DNA from: Chromatiales bacterium
GTDB lineage: Bacteria; Pseudomonadota; Gammaproteobacteria; Xanthomonadales; SZUA-36
DNA length: 32,324 bases
Direction: 5' to 3'
NCBI GenBank assembly: GCA_024640025.1
Contig: JAHEFT010000010.1
Span: forward strand, 10,177-42,500
Shown here piece by piece: positions 21,642 through 32,324 of the stretch (position 1 is the stretch's first letter; each line of letters opens with the position of its first letter). The notes below the pieces were generated by a model. That model did no database searches. It saw nothing but the letters and a program-made list of their open reading frames with translations, and had not been told where the DNA came from. The translations under genes were made by a program, and so were the position numbers.

Positions 21642-21717
21642 GGGTCGTTAGCTCAGTTGGTAGAGCACTGGACTTTTAATCCATTGGTCGTAGGTTCGAA
21701 TCCTACACGACCCACCA
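21642..21717 (+). tRNA. tRNA-Lys (anticodon TTT)
   Basis: The 76-nt sequence GGGTCGTTAGCTCAGTTGG...CACGACCCACCA folds as a standard cloverleaf: the acceptor GGGTCGT pairs with ACGACCC, the anticodon loop is CTTTTAA (anticodon 21675-21677), the T arm has GGTTCGAATCC, and CCA is encoded. It is nearly identical to E. coli tRNA-Lys. A T-rich stretch follows directly and may terminate transcription. Confidence 0.97.
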
Positions 21718-21741
21718 ATTTTTCCTTTTTTCGAAACCTGT

Positions 21742-21755
21742 GTTTCCGCGGAAAC
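21742..21755. repeat. 14-bp perfect palindrome GTTTCCGCGGAAAC
   Basis: A self-complementary sequence downstream of the tRNA. The T-runs are upstream of it on the plus strand, so it is not a normal terminator for the tRNA. The gap 21718-21980 otherwise contains no gene that I can support. Confidence 0.4.
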
Positions 21756-21798
21756 GTTCCCCGCATTCCGATACGGCAAAGGCGTCGCGTCCCCTTCT

Positions 21799-21828
21799 TT
21801 GTCGGATCCACAAGGTTTCGCTTACACT
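21799..21828 (+). promoter_or_regulatory. Candidate promoter of the amidase gene
   Basis: TTGTCG (21799-21804), an 18-bp spacer and TACACT (21823-21828). It would leave a leader of about 145 nt before the TTG start. The leader matches no riboswitch that I recognise. Confidence 0.35.
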
Positions 21829-21980
21829 TGCAGTCAGCCCGGTAGCCCATCGGAGTACGCAGACCGTCCGAGACTCCCGGCGAGTGGGTAGTCGATGAAA
21901 ATCGGTTCAGTTCGAATGACGCGGATTTGCCGCGCTGCGTCCATGACCCGTACCCGGACCTCAAACACTGGAGAACGAAA

Positions 21981-23513
21981 TTGAATTTCAGACTTCTTAC
22001 CTTCCTGACCATCTGCCTCCTCTGTCAGCCTCTGTACGCGGTGGATTTCGATCCATCGGACAAGTCGATCCTGGAACTCCAGGTCGCGCTCAGTTCGGGA
22101 CAAACCAGTTCCGTTGAACTGGTCGATTTCTACCTGGACCGGATCGCCCGATTCGACCGGAAAGGGCCTTCGCTCAACAGCATGGCGGTGGTCAACCCTG
22201 CCGCCCGCGAAGATGCCGCCGTCCTGGACCGTGAACGAAAGGCGAGCGGGCCTCGAGGTCCGTTGCATGGTATCCCGATCGTGGTCAAGGATAACTACCA
22301 GACCCGGGGTATGCCGACCACCGCAGGCTCGGTCACTCTGGCAGGATTTGCTCCCGATGAAGACGCCGAGATGGTCCGGCGGCTACGGGCGGCCGGCGTG
22401 GTCATTCTCGGCAAGACCAATATGCATGAATTTGCCTATGGCACAGAAACTCTCGGCTCCGCGTTCGGGGCAACCCGCAATCCCTACGACCCGACGCGAA
22501 ATCCCGGCGGTTCCAGCGGGGGCACCGGGGCCGCGGTCGCGGCCAATTTCGCCGTGGCGGGGCTGGGCAGCGACACCTGCGGCTCGATCCGCATTCCCGC
22601 CGCCCACAATTCACTGGTGGGCTTGCGCGGAACGCAAGGAGCCGCCAGCCGTACGGGCATCATTCCGCTGTCGGCAACGCAGGACATCGGCGGGCCGCTG
22701 GCACACAACGTGACGGACCTGGCCCTGCTGCTGGATGTCACCACCGGGTACGACCCGGCTGACCCGCAGACCGCCGCGGTCATCGGGCATTTTAATACCC
22801 CGTTCACCGATTCACTGAATCCCGATGCACTGCGTGGCAAGCGAGTCGGCGTCGTGGGCGAATTACGCCTGGTGGATCAAGAAGATGAAGAAGTCGCCCG
22901 GGTATTCGACGCTGCCATGGAGCAGGTGCGGGCCCTGGGCGCGGATGTCATGGAAGTCAGTCTTGCCAATCTCGACAGCCTGGTCTTCGAGGTCAATTAC
23001 GGCTACTACGTACTGCAACACGACTTTTTCAGAGACATCAATGCCTATCTCGCGGCCCACCAGGATGCCCCGATCGGGAATATCGAGGACATTCTTGCCA
23101 GCGATGCCCTGTCCGCCCAGATCCGTGAGCGCGTACAACAGTCGGTTGACTTCCAGAATGATCCGCCGGAACTCTACCTGAGCGAATTTGCCAAGCGGGA
23201 AAAGCTCAAAGTGGCAATCTATGAACTCATGGCGAGCGCTGGCCTGGATGCTCTGGCCTACCCGACCATGCGAAGAAAGGCGGCTCTCGTCGGCGAAGAA
23301 AACCTTGGAGAGACTTGTCGCCTGGCGTCCAATTCCGGTCTGCCTGCGATCACGGTGCCCGCCGGCGTTACACCCGATGGCCTGCCGGTCGGCCTGGAGC
23401 TGTTGGGTCGCGCCTGGGACGACGCGAGCCTGCTCGGGTTGGCTTATGCATTTGAGCAGGCAACCCACCACCGCAATCTCCCGCCGCTGGTTGGGAATCC
23501 ACGATCTGATTGA
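21981..23513 (+). CDS. Exported amidase of the amidase-signature family
   Basis: The 510-aa protein has a Sec signal peptide (NFRLLTFLTICLLCQPLYA-V), so it is periplasmic. The Ser-cisSer-Lys triad is visible: Lys in HGIPIVVKDNY, the first Ser in the GGSSGGTGAAVAAN signature and the nucleophile Ser in LGSDTCGSIRIPAAHNSLVG. The family hydrolyses amides ranging from peptide amides to aryl amides. I chose the TTG at 21981 because GGAGA precedes it by 6 nt and the signal peptide then starts correctly; the ORF-track start at 21927 adds 18 unlike residues. A small hairpin overlaps the stop. It converges on the SCO-MauG gene. Substrate unknown. Confidence 0.9.
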   Translation: MNFRLLTFLTICLLCQPLYAVDFDPSDKSILELQVALSSGQTSSVELVDFYLDRIARFDRKGPSLNSMAVVNPAAREDAAVLDRERKASGPRGPLHGIPIVVKDNYQTRGMPTTAGSVTLAGFAPDEDAEMVRRLRAAGVVILGKTNMHEFAYGTETLGSAFGATRNPYDPTRNPGGSSGGTGAAVAANFAVAGLGSDTCGSIRIPAAHNSLVGLRGTQGAASRTGIIPLSATQDIGGPLAHNVTDLALLLDVTTGYDPADPQTAAVIGHFNTPFTDSLNPDALRGKRVGVVGELRLVDQEDEEVARVFDAAMEQVRALGADVMEVSLANLDSLVFEVNYGYYVLQHDFFRDINAYLAAHQDAPIGNIEDILASDALSAQIRERVQQSVDFQNDPPELYLSEFAKREKLKVAIYELMASAGLDALAYPTMRRKAALVGEENLGETCRLASNSGLPAITVPAGVTPDGLPVGLELLGRAWDDASLLGLAYAFEQATHHRNLPPLVGNPRSD

Positions 23514-23520
23514 GATCAGA
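23505..23520 (+). terminator. Possible weak terminator hairpin of the amidase gene
   Basis: TCTGAT-TGAG-ATCAGA is a perfect 6-bp stem with a 4-nt loop, lying across the stop codon. There is no following T-run, so intrinsic termination is doubtful. Confidence 0.3.
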
Positions 23521-23558
23521 AAGAGTGACAGGGCGCAGGCATTGATTGATGGCGCCAG

Positions 23559-25469
23559 TTAATCTGACCCCGTGTTACCTACGGGTACTGCGAAGGCATC
23601 CGCGACCAGCAAATCCACGTTGTCTCCGGTCAGCGCAATCAGGAACGCCAGCAAGGCACGGGTTTCATCATCAGACAGGCTCAGGGGCCGAATCAAGGGG
23701 TCCAGCTGTTCATTGCGTATGCCGCCCAGGTTATAAAAATTGATGACCTCTTCCAGGCTGGAAAGTGAGCCGTTGTGCATATAGGGTGCGGTCAGGGCGA
23801 TATTTCTTAATGAAGGAGTACGGTACTTCCATCGATCATCAGGGTCCTGCGTGATTTCATATTGCCCAAGATCATTGGGCGGAGGCTCGGATGCATCTGC
23901 CACGATGTTACCGCGAACCACCACGTGTTCGCCCGGAGCAATCTGAATTCGGGTTTCTGCCGGTGATTTCGACATCGATTGTTGGTAACCCAACCCGGTG
24001 TTATGCAACTGGTTGTCAGTGAACAATGCAAATTCTTCGGTCACATGGTGACAGGCTGAACAGTTGGCTTTGCCGTTGAATAATTTAAAACCATTTTTTT
24101 GTTCTTCTGACAGCGCCTCTTCTTCATCACCGTAGTACCAGCGATCGAACGGGCTGTTGGCAGACACCAACATGCGCTCGTAGCTGGCGATCGCCATACC
24201 GACGGTTTCCATCGTGTTCGGCCGGCCCTCGAAAACCCGTTCAAACTGTTCCCGGTATCCGGGAATGGCGCTGATCTTGTCGATCACATACCCGACTGAC
24301 GGATTGCCCATTTCATTGTGGGCCAGCAAAGGCCCCCAGATTTGTTGCTCCAGGGTACTCTCACGGCCATCGAGAAAAAGGCGTTCAAGATATGCCACGT
24401 TATAAATGGTGGGTGAGTTGCGTCGCACCGTTTGGCCCTCGATTCCCACAGCGGTAGCAAGCTCATTGCTGGAAAAGCCCTGTTCCGGGACATGGCACAT
24501 TGCGCAGGAGAATGTATTATTCAGAGAGAGCCGCCGGTCAAAAAATAATTGTTTTCCCAACTGGATTTTGGCGGAAGTTATCGGGTTATCGACTGGAATT
24601 GGGATGGCGGGAAGACCAAGCGGAGGCATGGACAGGTACATCTGCAGGTCTGCTGATGTTCCCCGCCTGCTTTCCAGGCTTTGTGCCCTGGTTTGATAGC
24701 TCGCACTCTCGTACCCTACCTTCACGTCCCCTGCGCCCTGCAAAACGGTGCCACCTGCGGCTTCCATTTGCAGGGTGCGAATGTCATTCAACATGGTGTC
24801 AGCATGCAGGTAGGAGGCGCTGAAAATATTTCGGATGCGTAAATTCTTGTCGATCAGGAACACTCGCAGTACGTGGGATATGTTGCCCGCAGCACCATCC
24901 CCGGCATCCGGGTCTCTGACAATCGACTGGCCATAGGACTCGAGAACGGGTTCCAAAGCTTGTGGACCACTGGTTGTAAGGAAGCGCCAGTCAAACCCCT
25001 CGGCAATATAGGGACGCCCATAGCGTTTCATTACCTCAGGCGTGTCCTGGACAGGGTCGAAGCTCAGGCTGATAAAGCGGATTCCTTGGGCCCCTCCAGG
25101 CTCTTGCAGCAACTGGTTCTGCAAACGTTCCAGCACGTGGGTGGCCAGGGGGCAGCCATTCGCATCAGAACAACTGCTGTAAATAAAACTCAAGACAATG
25201 ACATTGTCCCCCATCAGCTGATGCAGGCTGGTGGGTTCGCCGTTGCTGTCCAGTACCTGGCCATCCCCGGCCATACCCATTGGAGGGAGCCGGTAACTGC
25301 CTGCTTCTGGGGGATTGAATTCCAGTTCACTCCAGCCCGGCGCAAGTACCTGGGGCTCGTTCTTTTCAGCCTGCCCCGGTACCGTTTCGGCCTGAATGCA
25401 CAGCAACAGAACCAAACAGACAGGCCAGATGCCCGTCTGTTTGAGGTGCAGTGTCCAGCCTGAAACCAT
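23559..25469 (-). CDS. SCO1/SenC copper chaperone fused to a MauG/di-haem cytochrome c peroxidase
   Basis: This 636-aa exported protein joins two maturation domains. After a hydrophobic leader (about 12-27, TGIWPVCLVLLLCIQA) comes a SCO1/SenC thioredoxin-fold domain (about 60-235) with VIVLSFIYSSC...CPLATHV (Cys100/Cys106) and the late His199 in NISHVLRVFLID. A linker leads to a MauG/CcpA-type domain (about 275-630) with two haem-attachment sites, CAMCH (322-326) and CSACH (470-474). The SCO cysteines are spaced CX5C instead of the usual CX3C. The ATG at 25469 shares one base with the mtoX stop (TGATG). SCO1/SenC and mauG are the known companions of mtoX, so it probably matures the copper site of MtoX. 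The last codons (TGSD, stop) come from a short recurring motif. Confidence 0.9.
   Translation of the reverse strand: MVSGWTLHLKQTGIWPVCLVLLLCIQAETVPGQAEKNEPQVLAPGWSELEFNPPEAGSYRLPPMGMAGDGQVLDSNGEPTSLHQLMGDNVIVLSFIYSSCSDANGCPLATHVLERLQNQLLQEPGGAQGIRFISLSFDPVQDTPEVMKRYGRPYIAEGFDWRFLTTSGPQALEPVLESYGQSIVRDPDAGDGAAGNISHVLRVFLIDKNLRIRNIFSASYLHADTMLNDIRTLQMEAAGGTVLQGAGDVKVGYESASYQTRAQSLESRRGTSADLQMYLSMPPLGLPAIPIPVDNPITSAKIQLGKQLFFDRRLSLNNTFSCAMCHVPEQGFSSNELATAVGIEGQTVRRNSPTIYNVAYLERLFLDGRESTLEQQIWGPLLAHNEMGNPSVGYVIDKISAIPGYREQFERVFEGRPNTMETVGMAIASYERMLVSANSPFDRWYYGDEEEALSEEQKNGFKLFNGKANCSACHHVTEEFALFTDNQLHNTGLGYQQSMSKSPAETRIQIAPGEHVVVRGNIVADASEPPPNDLGQYEITQDPDDRWKYRTPSLRNIALTAPYMHNGSLSSLEEVINFYNLGGIRNEQLDPLIRPLSLSDDETRALLAFLIALTGDNVDLLVADAFAVPVGNTGSD
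23563..23573 (-). repeat. Recurring 11-bp motif TCTGACCCCGT, copy 1
   Basis: The motif is identical to the one at 32260-32270. On the minus strand it supplies the last coding bases ACGGGGTCAGA of the SCO-MauG gene. Motifs of this kind recur in gammaproteobacterial intergenic DNA and may mark the ends of old mobile elements; that link is recollection only. Confidence 0.45.
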
Positions 25470-26872
25470 CAATTACTGCCGGTGAGGGATCCGGCTGCCA
25501 GTTCACGGTGAGCTACTTGCGGGTTGGACAGACCATACAATGAATAGGCACCAAATCGCATCTGGTGCGGAAGCCCCAGGTTTTCAGCAACGAAGTCTAT
25601 GGAAAATTCATGGTTCAGCTTTTTGCCATCCCATGTGTACGCCTTGAAGTACTGCAGATCCTCACCTTCCGGTGCCTCGATCTTGTCCCAGTTGGCGAGC
25701 AGAGAAGACGTGAAATAGAGTCGCTTGCCATCCCAGCTTTGCGAAGTCATGTTGACCTGGGCGCCGATTTTTGTTTCCTGAACCTGCACCGGCGCGAATG
25801 GATCGGAGATGTCAAACAGTCGGGCCTTGCCATCGTTCCAGGTATCGATCCACAGCAGGGAATCGTCGGCCGAGATGGAGATATCCACCGGTAAAGGAAT
25901 TTGGGCTGCGTCACCTATATCCGCAACAGCCCTGGCCTGCCATTCACCTGCTGAATCTTCATAGATGAGCCAGACTTTGGAGGTCAGGGCAGTGGTAGTG
26001 AAGCAGTAATTGTTATGCGGACCCCAGGCACAGCGGATTTCCAGAGGAGCCCCTGGTACATCAAGAACTTTTTTGGGCTGGCGTGAATGCAGGTCCCATA
26101 CCACGACGGTGTTTCCGAAACGTTTCATGGCCTCGGCATCACCCATCAGCTTGCCCAGGTTCATCATGTAATTATTCCAGCCGGTAAACGACGAGGTTAT
26201 CATCACGTTGCGCCGGGGCAGGGCGCGAATATCGTAACCGTAACCGTCAGCGAAATTGCCTGATTTGGTGGCGCCACCCAGGTCTTCATCAGTGGGCATC
26301 CAATGTGTCGACACGTAGTCGCCGGCGTTGCTGTATTCGACCAGCGCCGTGCGGCCGCCGTGATCCTTGTCATTGGAAAGACCTGTCACCATCATGCGGC
26401 CCGGCAAGGCGTAAGTGGTATGCGGGCCAACGACACCGCCGCTGGTCTTGACGAAGTTGTCGATCGTCTTGTGCAGCGTTGGTTTGGCAGGGTCTGTATG
26501 GACGTCAAAAATAAAAATCTTGCTGGTGTCGAGTCCGCCGGCCCACAGGTAGTGCCGGTCATCGGTAAAACCTGAATGATGGGCTTCGTTGCGTCCGCCG
26601 ACTGATAAGGTGTTGACTACTTTTCCGTAGCTGGATGAGGCCGGATTCACATCGACCGTGACCAGTTTATCCTGCTCATCCCCCACGCCCTCGGCGCCCA
26701 GGGTCCAGACATAAACGAAGTCTTCCTGGCCGACGATTTTGGCCATGTAGGGTGACATGCATGTTTCATCTGCAAGCAAGGATGACGCAAAGGTGACGGC
26801 TGAAGAGAGAACCAGGCTGGTCCAGAAACGAATCCCTTTACTGAATAGCGATCTTGATTTGAAACCTGACAT
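25469..26872 (-). CDS. mtoX: Methanethiol oxidase (SBP56/selenium-binding-protein family), exported
   Basis: MtoX oxidises methanethiol with oxygen to formaldehyde, sulfide and hydrogen peroxide, and the family needs copper. The 467-aa protein has a Sec signal (about 1-34, to SSLLA) and then the SBP56 beta-propeller: KLVTVDVNPASSSYGKVV, NEAHHSGFTDDRHYLWAGGLDTSKIFIFDVHTDP, GPHTTYALPGRMMVTGLS, GYGYDIRALPRRNVMITSS, PLEIRCAWGP and DGKRLYFTSSLLANWD. Candidate copper ligands are His98-His99, His151 and His436 (LGLPHQMRFG). The selenium-binding Cys of human SELENBP1 aligns with Gly83. GGAG lies upstream of the ATG. It is co-transcribed with the SCO-MauG gene. Its upstream region contains a duplicated DNA segment. 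The identity rests on recalled family blocks; a database search was not possible. Confidence 0.9.
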   Translation of the reverse strand: MSGFKSRSLFSKGIRFWTSLVLSSAVTFASSLLADETCMSPYMAKIVGQEDFVYVWTLGAEGVGDEQDKLVTVDVNPASSSYGKVVNTLSVGGRNEAHHSGFTDDRHYLWAGGLDTSKIFIFDVHTDPAKPTLHKTIDNFVKTSGGVVGPHTTYALPGRMMVTGLSNDKDHGGRTALVEYSNAGDYVSTHWMPTDEDLGGATKSGNFADGYGYDIRALPRRNVMITSSFTGWNNYMMNLGKLMGDAEAMKRFGNTVVVWDLHSRQPKKVLDVPGAPLEIRCAWGPHNNYCFTTTALTSKVWLIYEDSAGEWQARAVADIGDAAQIPLPVDISISADDSLLWIDTWNDGKARLFDISDPFAPVQVQETKIGAQVNMTSQSWDGKRLYFTSSLLANWDKIEAPEGEDLQYFKAYTWDGKKLNHEFSIDFVAENLGLPHQMRFGAYSLYGLSNPQVAHRELAAGSLTGSN

Positions 26873-26996
26873 GGGTTGCTCTCCTTTTGGTTTGATATGG
26901 GCGCTGATTGTTTTTATTGCGACAGTTCAATAGTAATCATAGGCGAAAATCCCAGGATTGCAGTCATTCTGGTAGTGGTTGGGTTTATTGTAAAAT

Positions 26997-27206
26997 CGGT
27001 GCATTCCGGTTACAGGATTCGCAACATGTTCCGGTCACATTTACTTATGTCGATTTTCAGCAGGTTTCCGACCCCATTAAATTCTTACTTTAAAAACTGG
27101 CTCTATTCAGTTCACGATGGATCGGATGGTGAGAGGCAGGTCAATCTGTTGTTAAAAAGCAGCGAGTTCGCGCCTGGTTGACAATATCTTCGGCCTCCTC
27201 CGCCTT
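26997..27206. repeat. Segmental duplicate (copy A), with internal deletion relative to copy B
   Basis: CGGTGCATTCCGGT (26997-27010) opens a block that matches 31306-31465 throughout, for example TTTCCGACCC, CGATGGATCGGAT.GTGAGAGGCAGGTCAATC and GCGAGTTCGCGCCTGGTTG. It then jumps at GCGCCTGGTTG (27170-27180) to sequence matching 31849-31874 (ACAATA.CTTCGGCCTC.TCCGCCTT). Copy A also has about 25 bp extra near 27011-27035, bounded by TTCCGGT repeats. No gene is supported in 26873-27140; this block and the mtoX leader fill it. Confidence 0.85.
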
Positions 27207-27367
27207 AATGACCATTACCGTGGTGCCTTTATTCCAATTTATTTCGCTCTTGCGCGCAATCGTCTGCGGCTCGTAGGGCTTGATGGATGCAATGCTGGTG
27301 TTCTGGCCCATGTTCAATCGCGCAGTCCAGGGTGCCTTCAGCTCGCCGGACGCCCGAACCTTTCGTC
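27141..27367 (-). pseudogene. Chimeric gene remnant: unknown protein C-terminus joined to a fragment of the PLDc_N-TPR gene
   Basis: The minus strand stays open but has no convincing start. The first part, KVRASGELKAPWTARL...SEINWNKGTTVMVIK, reads like a genuine protein end, perhaps an OB-fold of the NfeD-like kind, though I am unsure. It then continues AEEAEDIVNQA, matching AEEAEGIVNQA of the gene at 31437-32180. After that point the frame shifts (RTRCFLTTD) because about 383 bp are missing relative to that gene. It begins directly behind the D-2-hydroxyacid dehydrogenase stop. Confidence 0.6.
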
Positions 27368-28306
27368 TCAAAACAGACGTCCCAACAGTGGTTCGTTGTT
27401 GATGTAGCGTTTGAGGTTCTGAAGCCAGAGCGCCATCACCCTTGGAGTGTAAAGCGGAGTCTGCGAAGCATTGTGAGGCGTCAGAAAAAGACCGGGGGTT
27501 GCCCACAAGTCGTGCTCCCTGGGAAGTGGCTCTGTCGGAACGACGTCCAGGCAGGCCTGCCCAAGTAACCCCGAATCCAGGGACTCCAGCAATGCAGGGA
27601 TATCAACAATGTCCCCTCGGGCGACGTTGATCAAAGTCGCTCCGGGTTTCATCTTTGAGAACGAATGCCGGTTTATCAACCCGTTCGTCAGAGGTGTCAG
27701 CGGCAACGCGAGAATCACGAAATCTGCCTTCGGCAAAAAGACGGTCAGATCGTCGGCATTACCTTGCTCGTCAACATATTCAACGGGCTCAACGGAATGC
27801 CGGATGCCCAGAACACGCATCCCAAATCCCTTGCTCATCCGGGCAATTCGGCTGCCTATCGCGCCCAGACCTACAACAAGTACGGTCTTGTCACTCAGGC
27901 CTTCCAATTCCAGTTGTTTCCACACTCCCCTCGATTGTTGATCGCGCAATTCATCCAGCCTTTTGGCTTTCCACAGGAGAAGGCTCATTGCAAACTCAGC
28001 CACCTCGGTCGCATTGCTCCCCGGGCTGTGAGTTACCATGACATTTTTGTCACGCATGGCTTCGTAAAACGGCCCATCAGTACCGGCATCCTCGGTATGT
28101 GCCCAAAGTGGAGCCGACAGTTCCGCTGTTTGTTGCTTGAACTCCGTTGAATAGCAGTCGCCGGCGAGAACGATCAATTCACAGTCATCTGGCGACTCAG
28201 ACCAGCTGCCATCCTGCTCGAACAGGGCCCAGCGAAGATCCGGAACAATTTCCAGTGCCGCGGCTCCATAGTCCAGGTAGATATCACGCCCGGTTGCTAC
28301 TTTCAT
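27368..28306 (-). CDS. NAD-dependent D-2-hydroxyacid dehydrogenase
   Basis: The enzyme would interconvert a 2-keto acid and a D-2-hydroxyacid using NAD(P)H in the cytoplasm. From the ATG at 28306 (MKVATGRDIYL) it is 312 aa, normal for the family. The Rossmann motif is VVGLGAIGSRIA (146-151), the catalytic Arg230 is in NVARGDIVD, Glu259 in DVVPTEPLP and His278 in LTPHNASQ. The open frame continues upstream to 28558 with alternatives such as MRKFLYASEQQDEW at 28372; these 84 codons do not resemble the family and no start has a strong ribosome site. It is divergent from the ATP-grasp gene. The subfamily (glyoxylate, lactate, phosphoglycerate type) cannot be fixed. Confidence 0.88.
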   Translation of the reverse strand: MKVATGRDIYLDYGAAALEIVPDLRWALFEQDGSWSESPDDCELIVLAGDCYSTEFKQQTAELSAPLWAHTEDAGTDGPFYEAMRDKNVMVTHSPGSNATEVAEFAMSLLLWKAKRLDELRDQQSRGVWKQLELEGLSDKTVLVVGLGAIGSRIARMSKGFGMRVLGIRHSVEPVEYVDEQGNADDLTVFLPKADFVILALPLTPLTNGLINRHSFSKMKPGATLINVARGDIVDIPALLESLDSGLLGQACLDVVPTEPLPREHDLWATPGLFLTPHNASQTPLYTPRVMALWLQNLKRYINNEPLLGRLF

Positions 28307-28550
28307 TGTCTGCCCGTCATCTTGCGGATTCCATTCGTCCTGCTGTTCAGAAGCATACAAGAATTTTCGCATGTTGCCGAACGGCTCCCCGGTTCCCCTG
28401 AAGCCGATGTTTGATATGGCGAGTAAGGTCACCGTGGGAAATACGTTTTCGAATATAATCCAGGGAACCTGTTGTGAAATGCCCAGCATGATTTCAATTG
28501 TCAGATCAGCCACTGAAAAAGGCTGGCCGAAAACCGGCGGTCTGTAAACA

Positions 28551-29426
28551 ATGAGCAAGCCAAAGCTCCTGGTTCTCCAACACGAATTTCAGAATTCGCT
28601 GCCGGGTTCCAAATACATCGTTGCCTTGTTCATCAAGAAATGGGAACAGCTCGGATATACCGTGCAGAGCGTGGAAGGCGTCCATGACAAAGTCCGTGCA
28701 GATCTTCTGTTTGTCCACATCGATGCGACGGTTCTGGCAGAGGAATACCTGGAATTCATCAGCCGTTATCCGGTTGCCATCAATGGCGGCGTGACGGATA
28801 TATCAAAAGACCGGTTCAGCACGATCCAACTGCAGCGTACCGACAGCTACCAGGGCCCTGTTATTGTCAAGACGAAGGCCAATTTTGGTGGACGTCAGGA
28901 CCTCAACCTGCAGCGCTTGGCGGGAACTCGACCCCTGGAAACAGACCTGCACCAACGTCCCTGGCGCAAAGTAGAAACCCTGGACTCGTATGACTACCCT
29001 GTTTTCGACTCTTTGCGCAATGTTCCAACGGGCGTCTGGAAAAATCACAGGCTGATCGTGGAGAAATTTGTCTCGGAAAAGAACGAGGACGGTCACTATG
29101 TGATGCGCAACTGGTTTTTTCTCGGTGATCAGGGCTTCACCCGTTTGGTGAGCAGCCCCTATCACATTGTGAAACCCGCTTCAGGAACCCCCATTCCGGG
29201 CCGCGAGACATTCCTGCACCCTCTGGATGAAGCCATCCATCCCGCACTCCATGCTCTGCGTGAACGCATGGGTTTCGACTATGGCCGGTTGGATTACATC
29301 ATGGTTAATGGAGAACCCGTTGTCTTCGATATCAATACGACTCCCGTCATCCTGCAACAGGGTGTGAATATGCATCCAAAACAATTTCTCGAGGAGTTGC
29401 CGCGGGGGCTCCTGTCATTTCTGTAG
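28551..29426 (+). CDS. ATP-grasp-fold ligase, unknown substrate
   Basis: The 291-aa protein has an ATP-grasp layout: an N-terminal Rossmann-like region (KLLVLQHEFQNS..., about 1-90), the nucleotide-binding strand GPVIVKTKANFGG (about 104-116), LIVEKFVSEK, and the metal-binding end FDYGRLDYIMVNGEPVVFDINTTP with Asp and Asn in the expected places. Members join a carboxylate to an amine or thiol nucleophile through an acyl phosphate. No signal peptide. It is divergent from the D-2-hydroxyacid dehydrogenase and convergent with the next TPR gene. I cannot assign the substrate; a glutathione-synthase, RimK-like or peptide-type ligase are all open. Confidence 0.72.
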   Translation: MSKPKLLVLQHEFQNSLPGSKYIVALFIKKWEQLGYTVQSVEGVHDKVRADLLFVHIDATVLAEEYLEFISRYPVAINGGVTDISKDRFSTIQLQRTDSYQGPVIVKTKANFGGRQDLNLQRLAGTRPLETDLHQRPWRKVETLDSYDYPVFDSLRNVPTGVWKNHRLIVEKFVSEKNEDGHYVMRNWFFLGDQGFTRLVSSPYHIVKPASGTPIPGRETFLHPLDEAIHPALHALRERMGFDYGRLDYIMVNGEPVVFDINTTPVILQQGVNMHPKQFLEELPRGLLSFL

Positions 29427-29452
29427 AAGGCTCATTTGCCAGCGCCCGGGTA

Positions 29453-31255
29453 TTAGCCTGAAACACGGCCGGAGCCGCCGGCAATGTATTGGCGGCGCAA
29501 CTGGTACAGTTCCTCCAACCCGGGCCGCTCCAGGGCGGCACGAACCAGGGGCAGTTCAGGCCAGTCCTCGGGCAGGAAAAAATAAAGTGGAGAAACGAGG
29601 ATGGGATCCTGTGCGTCAAGGGCGATGCTCAGCCAAAGGGCAGCGTTAATGTCATCACCCAGGCTGGCATATAAGAAAGCCAGGAAGGTGGGAGAAACTT
29701 CACCCCGCTGGCCAAGGTCTGCCAACAGCAACAGATTCTGTTCTTTCTGATCTAGATCCCCGCTGTCTGCTTCTATCAGGACATCCAGCCAGAGACTAAA
29801 GGGATAACTGAAGTGCGCATCACCGGACGCAAGTAACTCCTGCAGTTCCACTGTGCGACCCGTGAACAGGTAGATGCGGGCCAGCGACCCCCAGGCATTA
29901 CTGAACTCCGGATTAAGCTGCACGGCAAGCAACTCCAACGCTATGGCCTCGTCGTAGCGCGCCAGCAATAAATTGACCAGTGCCAGTTCATGCTGATTGG
30001 CGGCGGAAAGTGGTTCCAGTTCGACAGTCCTGCCCTCGATTTCGAGCGCGGCCAGATAATCACCTACCGTGTACAGGTAATCACCCAGCAGGTTGAGATT
30101 ACTGGCATCGTTGGGGTGAATTTCGACCGACCTGCGCAACTGCTCTTCGGCTTGTTTCCAGTGACGATCGAATACCATAGAGATGGTTCCCAGGACGGAG
30201 TAGCTTTCGCTGTTGCCCGCATCCAGTTCAATGGATTTCTGCGCGAGTTCCCTGGCTTGAATGAAGAGCTCTCTGGGCGGCATCAACTGGACGTAGTAGG
30301 GCGAGATGACAAGGGTTTTGGCCAGGCCGGAATAGGCCGGCGCATAGGTCGGGTCCAGCGCGACAGCCTGTTTGAAGTGTTCAATCGCCTGGCGAATGCC
30401 CGTTGCACTTCGTTGCGCCAATTCATGCCGCCCGAGCAGGTAAGCATTGTAGGCATCTATACTGGTGGCTCTCGCTCCCGGCATGGGTTTACCGGGGGGT
30501 GCACTTTCGCCTGTTTCAAACGCATTGACCACCAGTCGAGCCAATTCATCCTGAACCCGGAAGACATCTTCCATGCGGCCATCAAATTCACGGGTCCAGA
30601 CCTGGAATCCGTCAGCGCCATTGACCAGCTGTGCTGAGACCCGAAGCCGATCACCCGAGACCCGAACGCTGCCTTCCAGAATATGCGAAACATGCAGGGT
30701 CTCGGTAATGCTTTTCAGGTCTGTTTGTTCGCCACGGAAAGAAAAAGAGGAACTGCGGCCGGCAACCTTCAGGTTCGCCACGCGTGACAGGGCATTGATT
30801 AATTCCTCGGCAATGCCATCGGCAAGGAATTGTCGATCTTGTGCTTCACTCAGATCATGGAATGGCAATACGGCGACTGATTCGACCTTGCCGGAAGGTG
30901 ATGGCTCATCGGCAAAGCGGCTTTCCCAAATGAAATAACCCAGGGCCATGAGCAATGTGGCGATGATGACAAAATCCAGCCATCGGCCATGCATGGAATG
31001 CAGGCTGGCGTCGCGGTCGACATCCTGGGTTCGCCGCAAGCCTTTATTGGTCAGTTCATAGATCCAGGCCAGAACAACCGTGATGGGGAAACCGAGGGTC
31101 AGCAACCCCAGAACGATTCTTGGAAACCAGTCAGGCAGTTCGAGAATTGGCCCGATTTCCCCGACCAGTTGGATGATCAACCAGGCAATAGCCAGGTAGG
31201 CCAGGCTGACCCTGACCACGTTTCTTCTTTGCAGTTCTTTAATAAAGTGACCCAA
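29453..31255 (-). CDS. Membrane-anchored TolB-like (FlgO-type) domain and TPR protein
   Basis: The 600-aa protein begins MGHFIKELQRRNVVRVSLAYLAIAWLIIQLVGEIGPILELPDW, a conserved N-terminus of a large environmental family. Three membrane helices follow (about 15-33, 45-68, 92-112). Next is a TolB-like/FlgO-type domain (about 125-250, SVAVLPFHDLSEAQDRQFLADGIAEELINALSRV...ILEGSVR) and then TPR repeats to the C-terminus (about 270-590). Relatives often carry an N-terminal cyclase or winged-helix domain; here there is none. The start is TTG at 31255, supported by the family N-terminus. It may serve as an envelope scaffold or sensor. Function unknown. Confidence 0.8.
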   Translation of the reverse strand: MGHFIKELQRRNVVRVSLAYLAIAWLIIQLVGEIGPILELPDWFPRIVLGLLTLGFPITVVLAWIYELTNKGLRRTQDVDRDASLHSMHGRWLDFVIIATLLMALGYFIWESRFADEPSPSGKVESVAVLPFHDLSEAQDRQFLADGIAEELINALSRVANLKVAGRSSSFSFRGEQTDLKSITETLHVSHILEGSVRVSGDRLRVSAQLVNGADGFQVWTREFDGRMEDVFRVQDELARLVVNAFETGESAPPGKPMPGARATSIDAYNAYLLGRHELAQRSATGIRQAIEHFKQAVALDPTYAPAYSGLAKTLVISPYYVQLMPPRELFIQARELAQKSIELDAGNSESYSVLGTISMVFDRHWKQAEEQLRRSVEIHPNDASNLNLLGDYLYTVGDYLAALEIEGRTVELEPLSAANQHELALVNLLLARYDEAIALELLAVQLNPEFSNAWGSLARIYLFTGRTVELQELLASGDAHFSYPFSLWLDVLIEADSGDLDQKEQNLLLLADLGQRGEVSPTFLAFLYASLGDDINAALWLSIALDAQDPILVSPLYFFLPEDWPELPLVRAALERPGLEELYQLRRQYIAGGSGRVSG

Positions 31256-31305
31256 ACTACGCCCCGAAAAGTCCGGTGGACTGGAGTATAAGTAGAATAG
31301 AGGCC

Positions 31306-31465
31306 CGGTGCATTCCGGTCACGTCTACTTGCATCAATTTTCAATAAGTTTCCGACCCTGGCCATTTACTGCATAAAAAACGGACGCTAATCAGTTAACG
31401 ATGGATCGGATAGTGAGAGGCAGGTCAATCTTGCTGCTAAAAGGCTGCGAGTTCGCGCCTGGTTG
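31306..31465. repeat. Segmental duplicate (copy B, presumed parent)
   Basis: This block holds the 3' end and downstream flank of the PLDc_N-TPR gene and the leader of the TolB-like/TPR gene. It matches 26997-27180. A second piece inside the gene (31849-31874) continues the match after the deletion in copy A. The 11-bp direct repeat GCGCCTGGTTG occurs at 31455-31465 and 31838-31848. Confidence 0.85.
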
Positions 31466-32180
31466 CGTCCAGCCAGGGTTTTTGGCTTTTACGAAAATGC
31501 GCTGGCGCTAACTTCGCATCTTTCATGATTGATTCCATTTCATCGATTGATTCCTGCTGCTTTCCAGCCGCTTTCAGGCAAAGCGCTAACCGGTAGCGCG
31601 CTTCGAGCCCGGGGAAATGTTTTGCAACAGCGCTGTATTCCGCCAGCGCCTTGTTGATTTGGCCGTCCGCCTCCAGAGCCTGGGCATACAGCAGGTCGCC
31701 ATCGGCACTGCGAAAATCCGGATTATGCTCTCGCAGCGCTTCCAATGACTTTACTGTTTCACCCGGCCTGCTTTGCGTAAACTGAATGCGCGCCCTGGTC
31801 AGCAGCAACGTGGGTTCATTGACGAAAATGCCTTTGAGCGCCTGGTTGACAATACCTTCGGCCTCTTCCGCCTTTCCTGCATCCAGAAGGGCCTCGGCAT
31901 ATCGACGCGCATTATCTGTGTTCGGGGATTGCTCCCAGGCTGCCTGGTGTTGCCTGACCTGCGCGCCCGGGTTCAAGGTCATTTTCACCTTTCTTGCAGC
32001 GCGCTGACCGGAAATACTACTTGAGAATTCGGGTAGTAACTCGATCACCAGGTAAGCGATTCCCCCGATCAATGGCATGAAAATCAGGATGAAAATCCAA
32101 TAGCGGCTGCGCCCCGTTTTCAGAACATGGATGATGAGAGCCAGCTGAATGGCCCAGACAAAGATTGAGCTTGTACGCAC
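31437..32180 (-). CDS. PLDc_N-domain membrane protein with TPR repeats
   Basis: The 247-aa product starts at a GTG (32180). The N-terminus has two short membrane helices (FVWAIQLALIIHVLKTG and YWIFILIFMPLIGGIAYLVIELLPE), the pattern of the phospholipase D-nuclease N-terminal (PLDc_N) domain without any PLD catalytic HKD motif. A TPR region follows (about 85-245: ARRYAEALLDAGKAEEAEGIVNQAL, LLYAQALEADGQINKALAEYSAVAKHFP, YRLALCLKAAGKQQESIDEMESI). It is probably an inner-membrane protein with its repeat domain in the cytoplasm or periplasm. The 3' part was copied to 27000-27206. The role is unknown; it precedes the TolB-like/TPR gene on the same strand. Confidence 0.78.
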   Translation of the reverse strand: MRTSSIFVWAIQLALIIHVLKTGRSRYWIFILIFMPLIGGIAYLVIELLPEFSSSISGQRAARKVKMTLNPGAQVRQHQAAWEQSPNTDNARRYAEALLDAGKAEEAEGIVNQALKGIFVNEPTLLLTRARIQFTQSRPGETVKSLEALREHNPDFRSADGDLLYAQALEADGQINKALAEYSAVAKHFPGLEARYRLALCLKAAGKQQESIDEMESIMKDAKLAPAHFRKSQKPWLDATRRELAAF

Positions 32181-32259
32181 GTGTTTTCGGTTCCGGTCGT
32201 TGAGATCAGGCTGACGATCGTAATACCTGCAATCACGTCAGTTGAATCCTTCACCGGAC

Positions 32260-32270
32260 TCTGACCCCGT
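32260..32270. repeat. Recurring 11-bp motif TCTGACCCCGT, copy 2
   Basis: Identical to 23563-23573. It lies in the region after the last gene (32181-32324), where I see no further gene; the rest of that stretch is AT-richer and may be a promoter region or the edge of another element. Confidence 0.4.
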
Positions 32271-32324
32271 AATTGCAAAAAGGTTGAAAAATTTACACCA
32301 AGGAGTCAAGGGTGACCCGCTGGC

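Follow-up and report, generated by a model that had tools for sequence, protein, structure and literature searches.

What is the short block of DNA that lies in front of the methanethiol oxidase gene mtoX, and does it do anything for that gene? In the 32,324-nt stretch of a Chromatiales genome analysed here (C11:10177-42500, referred to as the window, the end of which is also the end of the contig), mtoX occupies 25469..26872 on the minus strand and scores 746 bits against NF052453, for which the cut-off is 650. A first-pass annotation read the block upstream of it as one of two copies of a duplicated segment, from which DNA had been deleted between 11-bp direct repeats and which might have carried a promoter or leader to mtoX. 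We conclude, with considerable confidence, that this block (copy A, 26996..27206, minus strand) is a non-functional relic, produced by the decay of an IS3-family element, a local duplication and, finally, the loss of 383 bp between 11-bp repeats. The promoter part of the earlier proposal found no support.

Homology between the two copies

A blastn comparison of 26900-27400 with the window returned two matches, 27029-27180 to 31313-31465 (157 columns, 79.6% identity, E 4e-34) and 27170-27206 to 31838-31874 (37 nt, 94.6% identity, E 3e-11), which bears out the existence of a duplicated block upstream of mtoX. Pairwise alignment of the copy A and copy B regions recovered both the homology and the junction within it; the score for A against the B region was 154, while the best control among 88 window segments, taken on both strands, reached 27. 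The coordinates given in the first-pass annotation stood, except that global alignment extended the homology leftward to 26996/31305 and that the alignment includes a 25-nt gap. At the other side, the homology ends abruptly at 27206/31874.

By these matches, copy A corresponds to the 3' part of a gene encoding a TPR-repeat protein, together with DNA downstream of that gene, duplicated and since decayed. Its counterpart, copy B, comprises two separate segments on the minus strand. The first (31305..31465) consists of the intergenic DNA between the TPR gene and a TolB-like/TPR protein gene (29453..31255, minus strand; Pfam TPR families), which lies downstream of copy B, plus the last 9 codons and the stop codon of the TPR gene; the second (31838..31874) consists of TPR gene codons KAEEAEGIVNQA, which in copy A are joined directly to the 3' end. 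The TPR gene itself (31437..32180, minus strand) is intact and encodes a membrane protein of 247 aa, recognized by Pfam TPR families; 15 members of the family, including members of sister genera, have orthologues that are 52-71% identical along almost their entire length. The C-terminal end KxWLDAxxxEL is the same in relatives where it was read, and by this comparison the C-terminus is ancestral. Because copy B lies inside a gene that is intact in relatives, B is the original from which A, now decayed, was derived. In addition, 27170-27206 is identical to 31838-31874 at 35 of 37 positions, as compared to 29 of 37 for the best relative, indicating that copy A was made from this lineage's own gene. 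A syntenic locus representing the state before duplication was not found, as congeners have no TPR gene and the neighbours of this gene differ in other genera.

Differences between the copies are more frequent in the intergenic part (21 of 127 aligned sites) than in the coding part (5 of 55), a direction that is as expected but without statistical significance (Fisher p 0.25). In the TPR gene frame, the sequence shows that four of these five coding changes are synonymous. This would fit a history in which constraint acted on the coding part of B and the intergenic parts drifted to approximately 80% identity. The divergence also bears on the idea that a chimeric gene order around copy A is an artefact of assembly. 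While the assembly is a fragmented draft of 155 contigs and mtoX is placed elsewhere in congeners, 80% identity between the copies is too low to mislead an assembler, and the synonymous coding changes and two separate indels look biological; we thus give hardly any credence to an assembly artefact.

A probable 383-bp deletion between short direct repeats

The point at which copy A switches from one segment of copy B to the other is the 11-mer GCGCCTGGTTG. Exact string search found this sequence three times in the window: once in copy A (27170..27180), where it marks the deletion scar, and twice in copy B, as a left repeat (31455..31465) and a right repeat (31838..31848) located 383 bp apart, confirming the repeat arrangement proposed from inspection. 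As also proposed, the reading frame shifts at this junction because 383 is not a multiple of 3 (383 mod 3 = 2); in copy A, codons KAEEAEDIVNQA abut the last codons of the TPR gene and the frame, which reads KAEEAEDIVNQA and then RTRCF, departs from the TPR gene frame at exactly this point.

Copy B thus has the repeat at both ends of the segment that is lacking from copy A, and a single repeat is left in A. The undeleted form, i.e., the full TPR gene, is found in 15 relatives and is ancestral, and the 383-bp loss is therefore a derived state of copy A. The chance of a perfect 11-bp repeat at a random junction is, by our own estimate, roughly 1e-6, which argues for an involvement of the repeats in the event. 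There is thus good support for a duplication followed by loss of the 383 bp between the repeats, as B runs on into a gene found whole in relatives and A does not; recombination or slippage between the repeats, as first suggested, would account for the loss. Direct repeats in bacteria induce precise deletion of the DNA between them (PMC3519483), and illegitimate recombination has been put forward as one of the main causes of small-scale variation in genomes (PMC2884548). Copy A resembles the products of slipped misalignment or illegitimate recombination in that one repeat is left at the junction and the DNA between the repeats is gone; it differs from a typical direct-repeat deletion in nothing essential, the process here having acted on an already redundant copy. 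A hairpin at the deletion endpoint was considered in view of a plus-strand match resembling a terminator, but folding was no better than for shuffles (z -1.1).

A different order of events could lead to the same end sequence, namely formation of the 11-bp junction during the duplication itself, through template switching or strand slippage in copying, rather than by later deletion. Microhomology at the junction suits both histories; however, nothing positive speaks for formation during duplication, which would require one compound event in place of two simple ones. We consider this order of events unlikely, and retain a deletion that followed the duplication.

The alignment also revealed a second indel, overlooked in the first-pass annotation. 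Copy A has 25 nt (27004..27028) that are absent from B and that are flanked by TTCCGGTYAC repeats, with TTCCGGTTAC at 27004-27013 and TTCCGGTCAC at 27029-27038 as the bounding sequences. This indel is probably a deletion in B between short direct repeats, such that B would have lost 25 bp in the same manner as A lost 383 bp.

An IS3-family left end in both copies

Within the intergenic part of the block, both copies contain, at the same placement, a left-end fragment of an IS3-family element, approximately 53 nt long, which was likewise overlooked initially. The remnant in copy A, which reads TGACCTGCCTCTCACC... on the minus strand and has lost its interior, is located at 27092..27143 (minus strand), and that in copy B at 31377..31427 (minus strand), 9 bp past the stop codon of the TPR gene. 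The assignment is based on a match of window positions 31377-31429 to G015:C5:250-302 in a relative (87% over 53 nt, E 1.4e-11), which sits immediately upstream of an orfA-type transposase gene (PF01527, E 1.5e-26). Sequences upstream of orfA in G015, and of its counterpart in a second relative, G116, define the left end of the element as TGACCTGCCCCCC...TTAGTAGAGTCC, and right ends with a matching inverted repeat are present in both of these genomes, in which the element has TG...CA ends. In both window copies, the left end begins exactly at TGACCTGCC, and none of 1000 shuffles scored as well. We take this terminus to belong to the IS407-like group.

The similarity to IS3-family elements therefore lies in the terminus, where TGACCTGCC...TAGAGTCC corresponds to sequence that adjoins an orfA with HTH_Tnp_1 in G015 and G116; a TG...CA terminus beside orfA was identified for the left end alone. 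Unlike full IS3 elements, the window copies retain approximately 53 nt of the left end, with neither a transposase nor a right end; no orfA or orfB transposase ORF occurs in either copy, and the organism's own genome, searched in full with an OrfA query, returned nothing at E 1e-15. The IS3 piece is a remnant, not an element. Behind the IS3 end of G015, positions 300-5000 of contig C5 (L033) hold a run of small ORFs, several of them toxin-antitoxin-like, with similar spacers (..TTAACAACGCGTTAAA.., ..CTAACAAGCCATTAAACACGGACGCC..), an arrangement that resembles an integron cassette array.

The presence of a true IS3-family terminus, found elsewhere in one relative, might suggest that the whole block is a small mobile or dispersed, MITE-like repeat that was inserted twice independently. 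The block occurs, however, at two places only in the 2.9-Mb assembly (82% complete, 155 contigs), which excludes, for this assembly, the independent repeat family with many genomic sites that the first-pass annotation had named as a refutation. Among 399 relatives, the mosaic is found in none and the block has a match in G015 only, limited to the 53 nt of the IS end; the IS-end pattern has one exact match across the 84,980 species genomes of GTDB. These counts led us to reject a dispersed repeat family. Furthermore, the homology does not stop at the IS end but takes in part of the TPR gene, sequence that would not belong to a MITE, and the opposite edge has no inverted partner of the TGACCTGCC end, so that in place of two terminal inverted repeats and multiple copies we find one terminus and two copies that share flanking gene sequence. 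While the lack of matches for the left approximately 90 nt leaves some room for a mobile unit with one unknown end, we regard two independent insertions of a MITE-like repeat as very improbable and favour duplication of a block that already contained the remnant.

This left part (26996-27090 in A and 31305-31375 in B) is a stretch common to both copies, with TTCCGGTYAC and TTTCCGACCC motifs, and is perhaps the end of another element; no match was found for its approximately 90 nt toward 26996/31305. An IS21-like identity, considered on account of the two TTCCGGTYAC repeats, was rejected as a search of 101 genomes showed the paired pattern at no other place, and weak DNA matches, which fell inside unrelated genes or were due to chance, give no identity either. 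Searches for an RNA element produced Rfam matches at chance level only, and neither pattern matched in viral contigs. On the other flank of copy A, the 161 bp between the block and a dehydrogenase gene (27207-27367) are open in frame with the copy A remnant; sequence from 27207 onward has no match in the window or in the loci of relatives compared, and no protein origin for 27207-27367 was found in Pfam, NCBIfam or relatives.

Proposed history of the block

Both copies share the order TPR gene end, IS3 end and further stretch, which suggests that the IS had inserted, and had largely decayed, before the duplication. An IS3-family element was once located directly behind the TPR gene and has decayed to the approximately 53 nt of left end seen in both copies. 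Duplication of the intergenic DNA, together with the 3' half or more of the TPR gene, would have followed, most simply as a direct and local event that left two copies in one orientation, separated by 4.3 kb. Copy A would then have lost its 383 bp by slippage or illegitimate recombination, an event that accounts for the truncated and frame-shifted gene fragment observed. No junction that would point to a duplication mechanism is seen at the edges of copy A; a tandem duplication from which the DNA in between was lost later and a copied insertion fit equally well. Processes of this kind are known and represent ordinary genome wear of little importance beyond this genome; the case is a clear one, in that a multi-step history of IS decay, local duplication and deletion between 11-bp repeats is readable from a single contig.

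The block and expression of mtoX

Inward promoters in the left end of IS3-family elements have been described for IS2 (PMC3219604), and in both copies the IS3 remnant faces the downstream gene, i.e., mtoX in the case of A and the TolB-like/TPR gene in the case of B. If the block provided mtoX, and possibly the TolB-like/TPR gene, with a promoter or leader, for example by way of the promoter for the transposase in the IS3 left end, a promoter conserved between copies would be expected inside the block. A consensus scan identified a single sigma-70-like site (TTTACA-17-CAGAAT, 26994-26966, minus strand), which is located just outside copy A, has no counterpart in copy B and is no commoner than chance (1 observed against a shuffle mean of 0.7); no such site was found inside copy A or in copy B. 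Moreover, copy A begins 124 bp upstream of the mtoX start, and in congeners G001 and G004, mtoX has an upstream spacer of approximately 100-126 bp before a divergent neighbour, without the block, so that the 123 bp that separate mtoX and copy A are enough by comparison. A promoter or leader contributed by the block is thus highly unlikely, and we consider it even less probable that the IS3 remnant represents a promoter recruited in front of both genes, with the duplication having rewired a relocated mtoX. Consistent with a non-functional relic, the remnant ORFs of copy A should not be taken as genes, nor the block as a regulatory leader.

A variable region behind tRNA-Lys

The order pal-ybgF-queE-queC is common to the window and to relatives, and a tRNA-Lys gene follows queC in the window (tRNA-Lys(TTT), 21642-21717) as well as in five of the six relatives read; synteny then ends, and the content of 21718-32324 differs between genomes. 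As a consequence, mtoX, copy A and the dehydrogenase, ATP-grasp-like, TolB-like and TPR genes are all located in a variable region. The region adjacent to tRNA-Lys is an insertion and rearrangement hot spot that holds mtoX and the duplicated block. It resembles tRNA-adjacent genomic-island hot spots in that conserved queC and tRNA-Lys are followed by genes that are non-syntenic in relatives; an integrase and a repeat of the tRNA 3' end, the latter indicating an attachment site, would mark a genomic island, and neither was found in the part of the region that precedes the contig end at 32324.

The pair formed by mtoX and a fused SCO1-MauG gene occupies 23559-26872, and the arrangement of mtoX followed by SCO1/MauG has been described for mtoX operons (PMC5739008). 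This pair is kept in congeners G001, G002 and G004 and in the relative G015 (about 85-89% and 72-74% identical) with different neighbours, suggesting that the operon was relocated or re-acquired here; the block marks the DNA behind tRNA-Lys as a hot spot of rearrangement, to which the mtoX-SCO1/MauG pair would have been moved. The divergent gene adjoining mtoX in G001 and G004 is, judging from its translation, presumably an M23-type peptidase, and the genes that follow in G001, G004 and G015 are, again by their translations, what we take to be an amidohydrolase and a DUF819-type transporter. Between the dehydrogenase and TolB-like genes of the window, the ORF at 28551-29426, for which there was no Pfam or NCBIfam match, is ATP-grasp-like by eye and has homologues of 30-45% identity in relatives.
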